Assembly (NCBI GenBank): GCA_022841745.1
Contig: JALHQW010000008.1
Coordinates: 76,074-140,073, forward strand
Source of the DNA: Saprospiraceae bacterium
GTDB lineage: Bacteria > Bacteroidota > Bacteroidia > Chitinophagales > Saprospiraceae
Length of the DNA stretch: 64,000 bases
Direction of reading: 5' to 3'
Part shown: positions 5,853 through 61,800 of the stretch, piece after piece
Layout of the letters: each line of letters starts with the position of its first letter
Numbering within the stretch: position 1 is the stretch's first letter
The notes under the pieces: model-generated
The model's database searches: none
Seen by the model: only the letters and a program-made list of their open reading frames with translations
Told to the model about the DNA's origin: nothing
Program-made: the position numbers and the translations under genes

Positions 5853-6571
5853 AGCTCCAGGTTTTGCTGGGTGAAGCGGTCGCCGCTGGCCTTCACGGGC
5901 GGCAGCGGGCGGGCGGCCTGCATCCGCATCCAGTCCTGCCGCTGCCGTATCATGTGCCTGAGGGCCACCTCGCTTGCCCAGTAGCCGTAGCTGCCCATCA
6001 GCTGTAGGTGGTCGTGATAGACCTTCTTGATGTTCGGGCCCAGCTTCCAGCTCTCCCCCTCGCCGATGATGCCCAGCGCCCGCATCGTCAGGTTCAGCGG
6101 GTAGTAGTACATCCCGTTCATGAAGCGGCAGGGGTGCCCGTCCGGCAGCACCGCCTCCCAGTCAGGGTCGCCGAACTTCGGGCGGGCGGGCTGTAGCCGG
6201 GGCGCAGGCGCAGGCGGGGCGGCTATGCCCACGCTCCCCGTCCGCAGGTACTCCTCGAACGTCATTACCATCTTCACCCGGAAATCAATCTTCAGCCACC
6301 CCGCAAACTCTACGGCGATGTAGCGGTGCGCCCATGTGCCGCCCATTGCACCCCTTTCAACCCGCACCAAATCTGAATCACGAGAAAATCCCGTATTTGA
6401 TTTGAGCGCTTCGATGAAGGCTTTTGTGGAATCCAGGCGAAGGAAATCATGTGGGTTCTTCCCGAACGGCTTCGCCATTTCGGTGAGGTTCACCATGATG
6501 TCGTCGCCGTTGCTGGCGTCGAAGTGGATGGCGTTGCCATCGTAATCGAAACTGATAATCGAATTTTCCAT
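5849..6571 (-). CDS. KilA-N domain protein
   Basis: 240 aa. Residues about 1-110 follow the KilA-N pattern: ISFDYDGNAIHFDASNGDDIMVNLTEMAKPFGK, then DFLRLDSTKAFIEAL, and a WAHRYIAVEFAGWL motif near 80-95. KilA-N is a DNA-binding module of phage and virus regulators and antirepressors. The C-terminal 100 residues hold a Pro/Ala linker and a second domain with HPCRFMNGMYYYPLNLTMRALG and WKLGPNIKKVYHDHL, which resembles a second phage regulatory module. It lies second in the early operon, after the small HTH gene. Confidence 0.85.
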   Translation of the reverse strand: MENSIISFDYDGNAIHFDASNGDDIMVNLTEMAKPFGKNPHDFLRLDSTKAFIEALKSNTGFSRDSDLVRVERGAMGGTWAHRYIAVEFAGWLKIDFRVKMVMTFEEYLRTGSVGIAAPPAPAPRLQPARPKFGDPDWEAVLPDGHPCRFMNGMYYYPLNLTMRALGIIGEGESWKLGPNIKKVYHDHLQLMGSYGYWASEVALRHMIRQRQDWMRMQAARPLPPVKASGDRFTQQNLEL

Positions 6572-6644
6572 ATCTTTGCTATGAATTTTGAATGAAGCCG
6601 CTGCCGTCCTGAACCGTCCGAGCAGCGGCTTTTTAATGAATGCC

Positions 6645-6881
6645 TTAGTTCATGGCCTCCACGGCCTCGTCGATGTTGCGCTCCCGTTTTTTGCGCAGCG
6701 CCTCCTTCTCCCTCGCCAGCTTGGCGGCGGCCTCCATCACGGCCAGGCTCTTCCGCTTCCCGTTCAGCACCATGCTCACATAGCTCGGCGTCACGCCCAG
6801 TTCCCTCGCCACCGCCGCCGAGGCACCCCACGCTCGTATCGTGGCGTCCTTTATTTTTTTTACCTTGATTTCCTCAACCAT
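6645..6881 (-). CDS. Small HTH regulator, Ner/Cro position
   Basis: 78 aa. A helix-turn-helix is visible at about residues 20-45 (AAVARELGVTPSYVSMVLNGK), followed by a highly charged helix (LAREKEALRKKRERNIDEAVE). It is the first gene of the leftward early operon and faces the repressor at 7000, the position of Ner in Mu or Cro in lambda. It probably acts on the operators between the two genes. Confidence 0.8.
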   Translation of the reverse strand: MVEEIKVKKIKDATIRAWGASAAVARELGVTPSYVSMVLNGKRKSLAVMEAAAKLAREKEALRKKRERNIDEAVEAMN

Positions 6882-56530: not shown

Positions 56531-56682
56531 AAGGATTGAAGGATTGAAGGATTGAAGGATTGAAGGATTGAAGGATTGAATGATTGAAGGATTGAAGGAT
56601 TCAAGGATTGAAGGATTCAAGGATTGTGGATGAATGGACGTGAGACAATTCAATCCTTCAATCCTACTATCCTTCAATCCTT
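56531..56682. repeat. 8-bp repeat array AAGGATTG x12 with complementary arm
   Basis: Twelve 8-bp units fill 56531-56626, most identical, with three substitutions (AATGATTG, AAGGATTC twice). Then after about 20 bases CAATCCTT-type units at 56647-56682 form the complementary arm. The array lies between the DUF4252 start (56525) and the anti-sigma stop (56681). Confidence 0.93.
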
Positions 56683-57163
56683 AATTAAAATACTTCCCTA
56701 CTTTTTCCATTTTCTCCACCTCATGCGTGGCCTTTTCAGTACCTTTTTTGAGTTTGGAGGAAACGAGCCGCAGGGCTTTTAAAGTTTCATCGTAGGCTTG
56801 TTGTTCATCCGTGATTTCGTATTTGCTCCAATCAATGGAAGCTTGCTGTGCTTGAGTTTGAGGCCTCCAAATGGCGACCATCGCAACCAACAACACAGCG
56901 CCAACTGCTGCGATTCGGAGCATTTGTTTGGGCCAATTGCGCATCTGCACCACCTTGGCTTCGTTTGCACCGATTTTTTGGAGCAACTTGTCATCGAAAT
57001 CATCCGACAAAGCAATGCCTTGTTCTTGGGCAAAATGTTGGAACAATGGCTGGTAAACCCGAAGCTCGTCGTCCACCGCCTCACCATTGAAATAGGCCCT
57101 GAGTTGGGCTTCTTCCTCCAGCGAGGTCTCACCATCAAAATATTTTTCTAAAAGCGCTTTCAT
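56681..57163 (-). CDS. Anti-sigma-like membrane protein
   Basis: 160 aa. N-terminal MKALLEKYFDGETSLEEEAQLRAYFN resembles the short zinc-less anti-sigma start of Bacteroidota. A single membrane span at about 83-100 (MLRIAAVGAVLLVAMVAIW) is followed by a helical C-terminal domain (DEQQAYDETLKALRLVSSKLKKG). It lies 57 bases after the sigma gene and would hold it at the membrane. No HxxxCxxC motif. Confidence 0.75.
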   Translation of the reverse strand: MKALLEKYFDGETSLEEEAQLRAYFNGEAVDDELRVYQPLFQHFAQEQGIALSDDFDDKLLQKIGANEAKVVQMRNWPKQMLRIAAVGAVLLVAMVAIWRPQTQAQQASIDWSKYEITDEQQAYDETLKALRLVSSKLKKGTEKATHEVEKMEKVGKYFN

Positions 57164-57220: not shown

Positions 57221-57721
57221 TCATACCTCCATACCTCCAAACCCTTCTCGAATTGCCTTCCTTGCCCTGAACAGGTAAACCTTTACTTGTTCCATTGGCA
57301 CATTGAGGGCTTCCGAGATTTCCTGGTAGCTCAAGCCCTCGATGTCCCGTAGCCGCATGATGTCACGCTGCTTTTCAGGAAGATGGTTCAGCAGACTGCG
57401 CACCCGATCGAAGACATCGTTGGTCACAACGGCTTCATAAGGCGTGGCCGACTGGTCGTGAAGGTCGAAACCTGCGGCGATGGGTTGCAGGCGCTGGTGC
57501 TTGCTTCGCAATTTGTCAATCGAAAGGTTGCGGGTCGCCGTGATGCACCATGCCTCGATGTTCGAGATGGCGTCCATTTGGTTGCGTTGGTTCCAAAGCT
57601 TGATGAACACCTCCTGAACGACATCTTCCGCTTCCGCTGGCTGTCCCACGATGCCAAGGGCAAAGCGGTAGAGTCGGTTTTTTATCGGCAGAATTTTCGT
57701 TTTAAAATCTTGGTGATTCAT
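57221..57721 (-). CDS. ECF RNA polymerase sigma factor
   Basis: 166 aa from ATG 57721. Region 2: LYRFALGIVGQPAEAEDVVQEVFIKLWNQRNQMDAISNIEAWCITATRNLSIDKLR. Region 4: RVRSLLNHLPEKQRDIMRLRDIEGLSYQEISEALNVPMEQVKVYLFRARKAIRE. It belongs to the sigma-70 ECF group. It is followed by an anti-sigma-like gene and two DUF4252 genes, in the same direction, forming one operon interrupted only by the repeat array. Confidence 0.92.
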   Translation of the reverse strand: MNHQDFKTKILPIKNRLYRFALGIVGQPAEAEDVVQEVFIKLWNQRNQMDAISNIEAWCITATRNLSIDKLRSKHQRLQPIAAGFDLHDQSATPYEAVVTNDVFDRVRSLLNHLPEKQRDIMRLRDIEGLSYQEISEALNVPMEQVKVYLFRARKAIREGFGGMEV

Positions 57722-57912
57722 CTTGATAACTGGCTGTATCCCTTTCAATCTTGTTTACAAAAGGCAGACGGCATGGATTCGGCGTTTGTTACAGGCTTGG
57801 AATTTTTTTTAAAAATAAATGTTAGTGCCTGCACTAAATTTACCGCTAAATTAGCCGCTTACTTTATTTTTCTTCCATCGTAAACTATCCATTCCCATAG
57901 GGGAACCTGAAA

Positions 57913-60900
57913 GTGCCACAAACTATCGCCCTGCCATTCCAAACGGTCAGACTTCGCTTGAACACTGGCGAAGAACTGCTGTTCCCGCTTTCCGACCCGA
58001 ATGCCATGCACCTTGGGAGTTCCGTCAGTGCCTTGGCCGAAAAATTTGCAGAACGGTTTCAAGAAAAACAACTCAACAAAGGCCAGCACCTTTCATTGCT
58101 CGACCAGTTGAACTCGGCTGAGTTTTCCACAAAAAAAATTACCGTTCCATTTACGAAAGCGCCCGATGGCATCAGTTACCCGGATTTCGTATTGGAATTT
58201 GGCTGCATTTACCAACAGCGAGCATCTTCTGTATGGGGCATGCTGCCAGCACTCGGGCTTGAAACCCTTGCCTCCGATGAAGCAGAACTGGAAAAGCAAC
58301 TCATAGAAGTGGTGCGCATCGAGTTTTCTTCGAAAAAAAGGCTGCAAAGCGTTTTTCAAATCGTAGCCGCATCCTGGTACGACAGTGCCGAGGTAGTCAG
58401 TTCGGAAGTGAAACTAAAGGCTTGGTCGCCCGCTGAACTCGTCGAAATCCAAAAAAACAAGCAACGAGAACTGCTGCCCAAAGTGGCCGAAAGGATGGTG
58501 GTGGAGCAGCCCGCCGCATTTGGTAGGGAGGAGGAACTGGGTCAAATGGAGCGCATCATTAAAGGCCGCTTCAGCCGAAACCTGCTGTTGGTGGGGGCCT
58601 CAGGAACTGGCAAGACGGCACTCGTGCAGGAGTTGGTCCATCGTCGAAAATTGCTAGGCATAACGCAGGAAATCTGGGAAACAACGGCCTCGATTCTGAT
58701 AAAAGAACTCACGAACGAAACTGGTTGGCAGGACAACCTAAGCCTTTTGATAAAAGAGCTGACGCTAAAAGACGATATTCTTTTCGTCCGAAACCTCGCA
58801 GACTTGTTCGAGGTGGGCCGCTACGAGGGCAATGCCGTCAGTGTGGCGGAATACCTGCGCAGCGCCGTCGCACGGGGCGAGGTGACCCTCGTCAGTGAAT
58901 GCACTGCCGAAGAACGGGCCAAGATTGAACTGACCAGCCCCGGATACCTTGCCTACTTCCAGTCCGTGGAAATTGCGGAGCCTAAAAAGGATATTGAGGG
59001 CATCATTTCGCAAAAAATGAAAACCATTGGCGGCCAGCGAAAAGTAGTGGTTGAGCCTTCGGCGATTGCGGAAATCATCCGTTTGCAAAGGCGGTTCGCA
59101 CCTTATAGTGGCATGCCTGGCAGGCCTATCCGCTTTCTGGAAGGCATCGTGCTTGCGCAAAGCGAGGCGCCCATTCTACCCAAAAAAAAGAAAGCCAAGG
59201 TTGAAAGCCAAGCCCAGCGCCAAGAGCCTGCCGCCATTTCCATAGGTCGTGACCACGTCCTGCGCCAGTTCTGTGAGGAAAGCGGCTTACCCCCTTTCAT
59301 GGTTGACCCTGCCGTGCCAATGGATGTTTTACAGCTACGCAAGCTGTTCAATGCCAATGTATTCAGCCAGGGGCGGGCCGTGGACACGGTGGTGGACATG
59401 CTGGCTTCCGTAAAAACAGCACTTACCCGTACGGGCAAGCCCATCGCCTCTTTCCTTTTTGCCGGGCCTACCGGTGTTGGGAAAACCGAGCTTGCCAAGG
59501 TGTTGGCACATACGATGTTCGGTAGCCGAGAGCGGATGCTGCGCTTCGATATGAGCGAGTACAGCAACCCTTGGTCGGTAATGCGGCTCATCGGCGAAAG
59601 CTACCAGACCGAGGGCCTGCTCACCAGCGCCGTTCGGCGTGACCCCTTCTGCGTGCTGCTTTTTGATGAAATCGAAAAAGCGGACGCCAAGTTTTATGAA
59701 CTGCTGCTGCAAATACTGAGCGAAGGCCGGCTTACAGACAGCCGTGGCCGGGTCGTCAATTTTTGCAGTGCCATCATCATTATGACCACCAATATCGGGG
59801 CGGCGAACCTGCAACGGGGCCGCATTTCATGGAAAAAAGAACTCGGCGAATTGGACGTAGTGCAGCATTTCACCTCAGCGATTGAAAAGCATTTCAGGCC
59901 TGAACTGTACAACCGAATAGATGGCATCGTGGCCTTTGCCCCACTCGATCAGGATACTATGCGGTTTGTTGTGGAGCGGGAGATTGATTTGCTCCGCAAA
60001 CGGGAGGGCATCCGTTTTCGGCACGTTGATTTGACAATTGCTGAGGCCGTGTTCGATCATTTGGCCCAAGTTGGCTATGATGCCCGGTTTGGGGCAAGGT
60101 ACCTGCAGCGAACCATCCGTGAACAACTGACTGTTCCATTGGCCGAGGCCCTGAACGAATATCCCTTCGACGAGCGGCTGAGCCTGCAAGTGGATATGCT
60201 GGAAGGGAAAATAGCCGTAAAAGTGGATGCCGACCCATTAGGGTTTGACCTGCTGATGGAACAATGGGACAAGCTGACCTTGGCCGAGAAAACATCGCAT
60301 CAACGCCGAAAGATTGCCCTGCTGCTGGAAAGCCCACTCTTCCTCCGGTTCCAGAGTGAATTGGACATGCTCGAAGGTGACCTGAAAAAAACAGGCGACG
60401 ATTTTTGGAAGTCAGGTGAACAACCAAAGCGGTATGCGGCATTGCAGGCAGGCCAAGTAATGGCTAAAGAGGTAGGCGAACAAATCCAGCAATTGGAGGT
60501 GGAAATAGCCTTGGCCTGCATGGGGCATTCTGATTTCAAACTTGATTTTGGGCAGAGGTTGGAAGCCTGGGAGTCCGATTTTTTCGCTATGCAAGAGCAG
60601 TTGATGAGCTTGATTTTCCCAAGGCACAATACCTGCTATATCGGCCTTTACGGTGCCCAATTGGAGCAGTTGCACCAGTTTTATTTAGCAGTATGCGAAA
60701 CAAAAAATTTCGAGCTGAAATCCATACATTCGGTATGGTTCCGGGAAGGCTACCAAGGCGACACACCCAACGAGGAAGAAAAGCCTAAGCCAAAAACCCT
60801 GAACTATGTGCACCTTCCAGTGCAAAACCCAACCGCCACAAAACTCACATTGCAACCTTCTCTGCCTGACGATTTGCTCTGTGGTTTGGAGTTGGAAATA

Positions 60901-61230
60901 AAAGGTACGGGTGCTTGGCAATACTTGCAACCAGAAAATGGCAGGTGGCTGTTCTCGCTGCCCGAACTGCCGGGCGGCAGTGCCCATGCAATGGTCTATG
61001 TTTTGATGAACAAAATCAAGACACCAGAGGACATACATCGCCAATCGTTTTACCAAAGCCAAAAACCGAGGAGGCTTCTTTCTCCGACCGGCTTTGCGGA
61101 CAACAAACATGGCTTAACCAGCTATGCTGGACTGATGGACAATTTGCCTGCCGTCATGGATAAATTGGAAGAGCTTTACAAAGATGCCGTGATGCGCTCC
61201 TTCCTTGAGGCCGAAGAAGGGGATTCTTGA
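57913..61230 (+). CDS. Double AAA+ Clp-like protein with release-factor-like C-terminus
   Basis: 1105 aa, GTG start. No Clp N repeat at the front. AAA1 has Walker A GASGTGKTAL at about 228-237, but the expected Walker B acidic pair is replaced by DDILFVRNLADLF, so AAA1 probably binds more than it hydrolyses. AAA2 is canonical ClpB-type: GPTGVGKTEL (about 518), MSEYSNPWSVMRLIGES, VLLFDEIEKA (about 584). After the D2 small domain, residues about 808-870 (SELDMLEGDLKKTGDDFWKSGEQPKRYAALQA) read like the PCRF helices of bacterial RF2, and 880-1040 (CYIGLYGAQLEQLHQFYLAVCETKNFELKS; LELEIKGTGAWQYLQPENGRW) like the RF central domain. There is no GGQ. Confidence 0.85.
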   Translation: MPQTIALPFQTVRLRLNTGEELLFPLSDPNAMHLGSSVSALAEKFAERFQEKQLNKGQHLSLLDQLNSAEFSTKKITVPFTKAPDGISYPDFVLEFGCIYQQRASSVWGMLPALGLETLASDEAELEKQLIEVVRIEFSSKKRLQSVFQIVAASWYDSAEVVSSEVKLKAWSPAELVEIQKNKQRELLPKVAERMVVEQPAAFGREEELGQMERIIKGRFSRNLLLVGASGTGKTALVQELVHRRKLLGITQEIWETTASILIKELTNETGWQDNLSLLIKELTLKDDILFVRNLADLFEVGRYEGNAVSVAEYLRSAVARGEVTLVSECTAEERAKIELTSPGYLAYFQSVEIAEPKKDIEGIISQKMKTIGGQRKVVVEPSAIAEIIRLQRRFAPYSGMPGRPIRFLEGIVLAQSEAPILPKKKKAKVESQAQRQEPAAISIGRDHVLRQFCEESGLPPFMVDPAVPMDVLQLRKLFNANVFSQGRAVDTVVDMLASVKTALTRTGKPIASFLFAGPTGVGKTELAKVLAHTMFGSRERMLRFDMSEYSNPWSVMRLIGESYQTEGLLTSAVRRDPFCVLLFDEIEKADAKFYELLLQILSEGRLTDSRGRVVNFCSAIIIMTTNIGAANLQRGRISWKKELGELDVVQHFTSAIEKHFRPELYNRIDGIVAFAPLDQDTMRFVVEREIDLLRKREGIRFRHVDLTIAEAVFDHLAQVGYDARFGARYLQRTIREQLTVPLAEALNEYPFDERLSLQVDMLEGKIAVKVDADPLGFDLLMEQWDKLTLAEKTSHQRRKIALLLESPLFLRFQSELDMLEGDLKKTGDDFWKSGEQPKRYAALQAGQVMAKEVGEQIQQLEVEIALACMGHSDFKLDFGQRLEAWESDFFAMQEQLMSLIFPRHNTCYIGLYGAQLEQLHQFYLAVCETKNFELKSIHSVWFREGYQGDTPNEEEKPKPKTLNYVHLPVQNPTATKLTLQPSLPDDLLCGLELEIKGTGAWQYLQPENGRWLFSLPELPGGSAHAMVYVLMNKIKTPEDIHRQSFYQSQKPRRLLSPTGFADNKHGLTSYAGLMDNLPAVMDKLEELYKDAVMRSFLEAEEGDS

Positions 61231-61533
61231 AATTCGCACAAAAAAAATGGGCCGATGTCGAAAAAAACAACGGCCAATTTTTGGTCAGTTTTCAAAAAAC
61301 GCTTACCTTTCCCGTATTAAACGGTTATGAATTTTGGGGTTCAATCAACCTTTTTCATGGCCTTTTTCTAAGTTCTTTACTTACTGATTTCCTTTCAACT
61401 ATGTACGACCGGGTGGGTATCGGCTACGAAAATTGGGTTGCTCAATGCAAATCCTCACACTTTGAACTCCCTGTTTTGAACAACCATTGCGTACCGACAG
61501 TCAACTGGCGTTTACACTAAATTTTTTTTGATT
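61231..61533. other. 303-base intergenic region, no credible gene
   Basis: An open frame from the AAA+ stop to 61520 has no coding character (unlike neighbours in codon use). The region is AT-rich and holds the leader of the small HTH gene; no clear TAnnTTTG box was found. Confidence 0.5.
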
Positions 61534-61800
61534 ATGAACCTTACTTTCAAAGAGTTGAGAGACTTAAAGCATGCACTGCCCACAGGAAGCATCGCCCGCA
61601 TTGCTTCTGAATTGAATGTTGACGAGCAAACGGTTCGCAATTATTTCGGGGCAAAAAAGTACAACGAAGGAGGTATAGCGGACATACAAGTAGAACCGGG
61701 CCCAGACGGTGGCATCGTTCACATTGAAGACACAAGAATCCTTGATATGGCAAGACAAATTATCGAGTCTTCCAATCATCAAAACATCAATCCTAACTGA
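61534..61800 (+). CDS. Small Bacteroidota HTH-like protein
   Basis: 88 aa from ATG 61534. LRDLKHALPTGSIARIASELNVDEQTVRNYFGAKKYNEGGIADIQVEPGPDGGIVHIEDTRILDMARQII: residues 14-35 look like a HTH (SIARIASELNVDEQTVRNYF). It resembles small DNA-binding proteins common in this phylum. A strong bidirectional terminator follows. Target unknown. Confidence 0.75.
   Translation: MNLTFKELRDLKHALPTGSIARIASELNVDEQTVRNYFGAKKYNEGGIADIQVEPGPDGGIVHIEDTRILDMARQIIESSNHQNINPN

Follow-up and report, generated by a model that had tools for sequence, protein, structure and literature searches.

A Clp/Hsp100-type AAA+ protein with a predicted release-factor-fold tail and its co-occurring paralogues in Saprospiraceae

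The window analyzed here, a stretch of 64,000 nucleotides from a Saprospiraceae bacterium (GenBank assembly GCA_022841745.1, contig JALHQW010000008.1, positions 76,074 to 140,073 of the forward strand), carries a gene, termed gene C, for a Clp/Hsp100-type AAA+ protein that ends in a tail of about 330 residues starting at residue 775. Computation supports two statements about it. The tail is predicted to have the fold of a bacterial release factor (RF), most like RF2, with domain 1 and the codon-recognition domain, and gene C is one of three Clp paralogues found together, of which A has no tail while B and C have one. Docking on the ribosome is the leading functional reading of this arrangement, a putative one that we would not call probable.

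The core of gene C places it among the Clp/Hsp100 AAA+ proteins, with a first and a second AAA+ domain (D1 and D2) in tandem and a ClpB_D2-small domain in D2. The second domain is of the ClpB type by its family matches (AAA_2, expectation value (E) 5.4e-45; ClpB_D2-small, 2.6e-12), and the protein matches the ClpB structure 1qvr at 1e-73. Gene C shares with ClpB and Hsp104 the two AAA+ domains, the intact Walker A and B motifs of D2 and the D2-small domain, but differs from them in having no Clp_N match, no Walker B pair in D1 and no full-length D2 pore loop, and in its additional tail. It also stayed below the cut-off of the ClpB equivalog model TIGR03346 (302.9 against 1232.1 bits), and it has neither the Asp-Glu (DE) pair of a ClpB-type D1 Walker B nor the GYVG pore loop. 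Residues 1-200, searched alone, gave no Clp_N, and the sole family found was Hda_lid at E 0.15. The model of this N-domain was of moderate confidence (predicted local distance difference test score, pLDDT, 75.4) and had no PDB fold match at E<=0.001. The N-domain profiles of B and A scored 22.3 and 20.0 against that of C, values with no null distribution behind them. One stretch of the domain, VPAL followed by a helix, resembles HicB antitoxins by eye; a HicB chain appeared only at E 1.4, and we do not claim this likeness. A preliminary description, made from the letters alone, had called the second AAA+ domain ClpB-type, the front free of Clp N repeats and the first Walker B abnormal, and each of these statements agrees with the family and structure matches and with the replacement of DE by RN; the DDFW and the RF-type motif that it had quoted from the tail are both present (Table 1).

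Table 1. Gene C and its features in the window
Feature	Coordinates	Strand	Remarks
Gene C, Clp/Hsp100-type AAA+ protein with release-factor-fold tail (predicted)	57913..61230	+	1105 aa, GTG start
N-terminal domain, residues 1-200	57913..58512	+	family-conserved; no family over cut-off
D1 Walker A	58594..58617	+	GASGTGKT
D1 Walker B position	58777..58800	+	ILFVRNLA; no acid kept in 25/25 long C proteins
D2 Walker A	59464..59487	+	GPTGVGKT, intact
D2 pore-loop region	59593..59622	+	shortened: GESYQTEGLL; canonical ClpB of the same genome, GAPPGYVGYEEGGQL
D2 Walker B	59653..59679	+	VLLFDEIEK, intact
Tail, helical part, residues 775-901	60235..60615	+	putative counterpart of RF domain 1 (PCRF); DDFW at 829-832
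Tail, alpha/beta part, residues 907-1105	60631..61227	+	putative counterpart of RF domain 2 (codon recognition); hydrolase insertion absent
Motif GLELEIKGTGAWQYLQPENG, residues 991-1010	60883..60942	+	aligned with GLEIDGDYAYGMLKGENG of RF2
Segment TPEDIHRQSFYQSQKPRRLLSPTGFADN	61021..61104	+	at the place of the RF2 hydrolase domain and the IRSYVLDDRRVKDHR that follows it in RF2

The assignment of the tail is carried by structure prediction, which is a stronger line than sequence for the RF fold. The AlphaFold2 model built from 33 sequences reached a pLDDT of 91.5 and a predicted template modeling score (pTM) of 0.85, and it runs from long helices through a strand-helix-strand unit, two strands and a short helix to further strands and a final helix. 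A Foldseek search of the PDB with this model gave 33 matches at E<=0.001, the best at 2.7e-8, and 30 of them were titled as release factors (RF1, RF2, mtRF1 or plain "release factor"). The other three (4v63_AX, 8akn_W and 9d7r_1w) are chains of 354, 354 and 249 residues in ribosome termination or peptide complexes, and we take them to be release factors by their fitting length. The first plainly unrelated row stood at E 0.23. Among the weaker matches was a chain of PrfH, an atypical bacterial release factor of the same fold class (9mor_A, E 0.071); PrfH retains the GGQ hydrolase domain, unlike the tail of gene C. The result does not stem from a bias of the procedure, because the N-domain model, made by the same procedure and of lower confidence, had no match at that threshold. 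The preliminary description had read the tail as the domain 1 helices and the central domain of a release factor, and had named the predicted fold as the point on which this reading could fail; the prediction returned RF1/RF2-type chains, with domain-1-like helices and a domain-2 sheet, and the comparison with an RF2 profile agrees modestly.

Sequence comparison on its own would say only that the tail is perhaps related to release factors. A profile of 27 C tails, including a 371-residue fragment (L068), was aligned with a profile of 27 RF2 sequences from the relatives over 165 collinear columns, with a score of 36.5 and a probability of 36%. None of 100 column shuffles was as good (best 31.8), the reversed RF2 profile scored 11.2, and 28 other profiles, each compared with both the tail and RF2 (56 comparisons), did not exceed 26.3. 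These controls were the N, D1 and D2 domains of gene C itself and 25 neighboring families, taken from 40 neighbor clusters after exclusion of those with a median length below 150 residues. The DFW part contributes alignment length to the match, not score. The tail matched an RF1 profile weakly (23.0), and hmmsearch of 60 tail rows gave no match to the RF1 profile and a best E of 0.11 for RF2 at a nominal database size of 25,000. Searches of 33 tails against family collections gave weak matches throughout: PCRF was the commonest of 24,736 Pfam families (4 tails, best E 0.0064; next family, 2 tails), and prfB the commonest of 18,950 NCBIfam models (3 tails, best E 0.004; next, 2 tails). No tail among the 33 reached the curated cut-off of PF03462 (PCRF) or TIGR00020 (prfB) in searches at E<=10, and the tail of the window was unmatched. 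Searched singly, this tail found no Pfam family, a best PDB match by phmmer at E 2.5, and one PHROGs family of unknown function over the helical part (phrog_7149, E 0.0037); a PDB profile search gave a designed coiled coil (E 0.084) and then eS6 (E 1.1). The C tails are mostly acidic (median net charge -8), which is not decisive because domains 1 and 2 of RF2 are acidic too (median -19).

According to one review, the hydrolase domain of bacterial release factors sits inserted within the codon-recognition domain (PMC6514570). The tail model of gene C has no such domain. The preliminary description had noted the missing GGQ and concluded that the protein would not hydrolyze peptidyl-tRNA; the letters GGQ occur in 4 of 47 C tails, always at the E-x-G motif (E[ED]GGQ.W) and outside any hydrolase domain. 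The Glu and the last Gly of GLELEIKGTGAWQYLQPENG are invariant among the 27 C tails, and TPEDIHRQSFYQSQKPRRLLSPTGFADN has one invariant Arg and one almost invariant Asp. The loop after E-x-G, measurable in 27 C tails, 26 of 28 B tails and 24 of 27 RF2 sequences, has 12-14 residues in C and 10 in B against 18 in RF2. GG.EA is present in 16 of the 27 RF2 sequences and in none of the 47 C and 28 B tails; this tip belongs to the stop-codon-related elements of functional release factors. SP[FYW] was found in 5 C tails and 1 B tail, each time at another place than the codon loop; the SPF of RF2 serves in the stop-codon loop (PMC5378476). With the hydrolase domain missing and the codon loop shortened, the tail of gene C is not expected to release peptides, and recognition of stop codons by it is unlikely. 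It thus resembles RF2 (prfB) in its helical domain 1 with a DFW-type motif and the following domain-2 sheet with E-x-G, and differs from it in the lost hydrolase domain, the shorter loop, the missing SPF and GG.EA and the fusion to a Clp core. The part that follows the lost hydrolase domain appears to be kept in B; for gene C, where the model has strands and a helix, the sequence likeness is not significant.

In the genome of the window (G000), paralogue A is a protein of about 760 residues (contig C15, L241, 15487-17754, plus strand); B, with an RF2-like tail, has about 1116-1135 residues (contig C102, L240, 10884-14231, minus strand). BLAST found no significant pairing anywhere between the B and C tails. 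The B tail profile, made from 28 sequences, nevertheless gave the same RF2 answer, with a score of 31.5 that none of 100 shuffles equaled, and the last segment of B, VIRIYDG..TLTDLRTGY, scored 23.1 against the post-hydrolase part of RF2, IRSYVLDDRRVKDHRTGY, with none of 200 shuffles as good. The B alignment (A5) omits L189 and L209 of the 28 B loci. The D2 tree resolved one group for each of A, B and C and separated the three jointly from five canonical ClpB rows (100/99), and A adjoined C (97/80). This topology implies that the tail was probably either gained once and then lost in A, or gained twice.

Gene C is lineage-specific, and the trio is found in one bacterial family. A survey of homologues, which the preliminary description had proposed as a check, revealed this restriction. 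The existence of A and B lay beyond the reach of that description. Among 100 relatives, the C tail was matched in 27, with open frames of 1061-1121 residues in 24 and of 746, 371 and 982 residues in the others; B was found in 28, A in 26 and all three in 25. The count of A uses a cut of E<1e-50, because other Clp D1 domains match more weakly almost everywhere (98 of the 100 genomes at E<=0.001). Of the 61 genomes that belong to the family, 26 have both C and B, 1 has C alone, 2 have B alone and 32 have neither. The four discordant genomes are drafts, three of them 85, 78 and 89% complete (G011, G013 and G021) and one in about 1040 contigs (G040). A sample of the order (298 genomes) gave 21 C matches, namely 19 long frames and one remnant in the same family and one weak match outside it, and the genomes with B were precisely those 19 that have a long C frame; in G326, B is a short piece at a contig end. 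In G161 only a broken C is left, with pieces of the N-domain (L292, 5652-5936) and the tail (6264-6788) but without the AAA+ core, and no B was found there, a single case which suggests that C and B decay together. A sample of the phylum (395 genomes) had a C match in the window's own genome only, and scanning the species-genome collection with a sequence pattern turned up 32 loci, of which 31 were titled Saprospiraceae, Saprospirales, Phaeodactylibacter, Aureispira or Bacteroidetes/Bacteroidota and one titled "bacterium". B and C lie about 4.5 kb apart in G273, with shikimate-kinase-like and DnaG-like genes, so named from their sequences, between them, and A and B matches are 18-21 kb apart in three genomes. 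The weak match outside the family is a 249-residue frame in a genome of another family (G320, L180; E 2.3e-4 to the tail profile), which may be a very distant relative or a chance hit.

The ATPase motifs were counted in 56 long proteins (25 C, 15 B and 16 A). Walker A and B of D2 are intact in all 25 C, all 15 B and all 16 A proteins, and the DE pair of the D1 Walker B is kept in none of the 56: C has neither acid (25/25), B always lacks the Glu and retains the Asp in 12 of 15, and A varies, with ED in 5 of 16. The D2 pore-loop stretch was listed for all 24 C loci and for 27 of 28 B, 25 of 26 A and 3 of 4 canonical loci. In three canonical ClpB paralogues of the window's genome it is 17 residues long and contains GYVG or GYIG. 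The length falls to 11 residues in A, to 12 in B and to 9-12 in C (12 in the gene of the window), a shortening by 5-8 residues, and GYVG is absent from all 56. The corresponding loop of ClpB grips its substrate through Tyr653 and Val654 (PMC6546751). Since all 56 proteins have a short loop that lacks GYVG, threading of a substrate is doubtful; an aromatic residue is often kept in the loop of C, so some gripping may still be possible. These motif states suggest a remodeling ring that moves parts with ATP and not an ordinary threading unfoldase.

We therefore considered a mechanism in which A, B and C would form one heteromeric Hsp100-type ring. D1 would be mainly structural, D2 would burn ATP, and the short pore loops may have lost the usual mode of peptide gripping and threading. 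In B and C, the RF-like arms would project from the ring on the C-terminal side of D2, where ClpP docks in other Clp proteins. These arms would attach the ring to the ribosome at or near the release-factor site (L11 stalk or A site) without peptide release, and the ATP-driven motion could then remodel or clear a stalled or idle ribosome complex. This site is proposed because RF2 contacts the L11 stalk through domain 1 and the decoding site through domain 2 (PMC5378476). Taken as a whole, from the RF-body tails and the co-occurring trio to the heteromeric ring and its attachment to and remodeling of the ribosome, this is the best explanation we can offer, and we regard it as plausible but short of probable. 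Its most specific form is put forward with greater reserve: a candidate ATP-driven ribosome-remodeling machine of three degenerate Clp proteins, two of them bearing an RF body minus the catalytic domain. This body would sit in or probe the release-factor site, and ATP hydrolysis would serve to clear, recycle or hold ribosomes while the nascent chain stays attached.

Several observations weigh against this explanation. The RF2 match of the tail is narrow, since sliding deletions placed nearly all of its score in about 26-33 columns round the E-x-G motif. Removal of the hydrolase domain from the RF2 profile raised the score only from 36.5 to 36.9, a gain not exceeding that of cuts elsewhere in that half, and the last part of gene C scored 9.5 against the post-hydrolase part of RF2, which 83 of 200 shuffles equaled. 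The global superposition of the tail model is poor, with TM-scores on the query of 0.21-0.37 and a root-mean-square deviation of at least 10 Å in the first 33 rows, presumably due to a differing orientation of the domains. The RF likeness of the B tail is a matter of sequence, and the RF codon-reading elements tested are gone from the tails. D1 is not equally dead across the set, given the ED in 5 of 16 A proteins and the Asp in 12 of 15 B proteins. The heteromer is deduced from co-occurrence, whose counts are uncorrected for the relatedness of the genomes, and we infer the attachment of the B and C arms to the ribosome. Genome size is a partial confounder, as C is present in 24 of the 28 family genomes that reach 5 Mb and in 3 of the 33 smaller ones; large genomes without B and C (G103, G137 and G183) and small ones with both (G298 and G237) also exist. 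In the window's genome, A, B and C lie on three contigs and not in one operon. The simpler idea of the preliminary description, an unfoldase docked on ribosomes, has against it the shortened codon loop, the missing GG.EA, the displaced SP[FYW] motifs and the short D2 loop without GYVG.

The alternative that fares best is that the RF fold was adopted as a plain protein-binding or assembly module, so that the arms would join A, B and C to each other or bind a non-ribosomal partner that the ring remodels. The shortened codon loop and the loss of SPF and GG.EA fit such a role, as do the invariant residues of the tail, few of which resemble those of a binding site, and the tailless A, which still co-occurs with B and C. 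It has to explain why the domain-1 and domain-2 parts, both of which contact the ribosome in RF2 (PMC5378476), were retained jointly, and there is no pointer to another partner, the neighboring genes inspected looking like housekeeping genes. We consider this reuse of the RF fold, uncertain as it is, nearly as likely as ribosome attachment. If gene C were an ordinary disaggregase like ClpB, or an unfoldase working with ClpP, and its C-terminus a decoration, the intact D2 Walker motifs in all 56 proteins and the ClpB D2-small domain would be accounted for; this reading appears improbable in view of the absence of the D1 DE pair from all 56, the D2 loop of 9-12 residues without GYVG against the canonical 17, and the grouping of A, B and C apart from canonical ClpB in the D2 tree. 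Still less likely is that the trio serves a contractile injection system as its ClpV-like ATPase. The phage-type sheath family PF17482 is enriched with C (20 of 27 genomes against 10 of 73 without C), but the sheath search found nothing in 6 of the 25 genomes that carry the whole trio (G008, G028, G031, G035, G048 and G050; TssB and TssC of type VI systems were outside the search), the sheath match of the window's genome lies on contig C69, separate from those of A, B and C, both sheath and C partly track genome size, and gene C reached 225.5 bits where the ClpV model TIGR03345 has its cut-off at 884.95. Across the 100 genomes, PF04984 was found in 28 and PF17482 in 30, with no one-to-one match to C. 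An artefact of coiled coils or of prediction is hardly credible as the source of the RF resemblance, for all the modest sequence scores, the failure of the single tail to match Pfam or PDB entries by sequence and the ability of AlphaFold2 to recall folds, since the shuffle and other-family profile controls agree with the fold search, the E-x-G motif of the domain-2 part and not the helices bears most of the sequence score, and the B tail leads to RF2 as well.

The surroundings of gene C were also inspected. An exported subtilase-like protease, named by its sequence without a family search, follows within about 420 bases downstream on the same strand at 11 loci. A 90-residue helix-turn-helix protein (61528-61800, plus strand) begins about 300 bases downstream of gene C, likewise at 7 other loci of the genus. 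The protease and this protein were considered as operon partners and taken as incidental. Divergent from gene C lies an ECF-type (extracytoplasmic function) sigma factor (57221-57748, minus strand), whose place is kept at 4 other loci, next to its possible anti-sigma partner (56681-57163, minus strand). An array of 12 copies of the 8-base unit AAGGATTG occupies 56531-56626, and a related short array 56649-56682. A role in anti-phage defense was also rejected: the hits that PADLOC gave with the full-length protein seem to be generic for AAA+ domains, and neither the tail nor the N-domain matched any family when searched separately.

Among known systems, the eukaryotic ribosome quality control factor Vms1/ANKZF1 acts with Cdc48 as an RF-type protein working with an AAA+ chaperone (PMC6514570). 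This is an analogy only, as Vms1/ANKZF1 belongs to the archaeal/eukaryotic RF superfamily, which is unrelated to bacterial RF, and the two are separate proteins joined by a VIM motif. We found no title on a release-factor body fused to an AAA+ ring in the open-access literature, subscription papers and preprints lying outside the scope of that search, and a word search of the main text of a review on release-factor evolution gave 0 occurrences of "clp".

If functional, gene C and its paralogues would join two of the best-studied machines of the cell and would represent the reuse of a release factor without its catalytic domain. They would also offer a ready test of whether a Clp ring can act on ribosomes. 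The three-gene set of A, B and C is a clear genetic handle.

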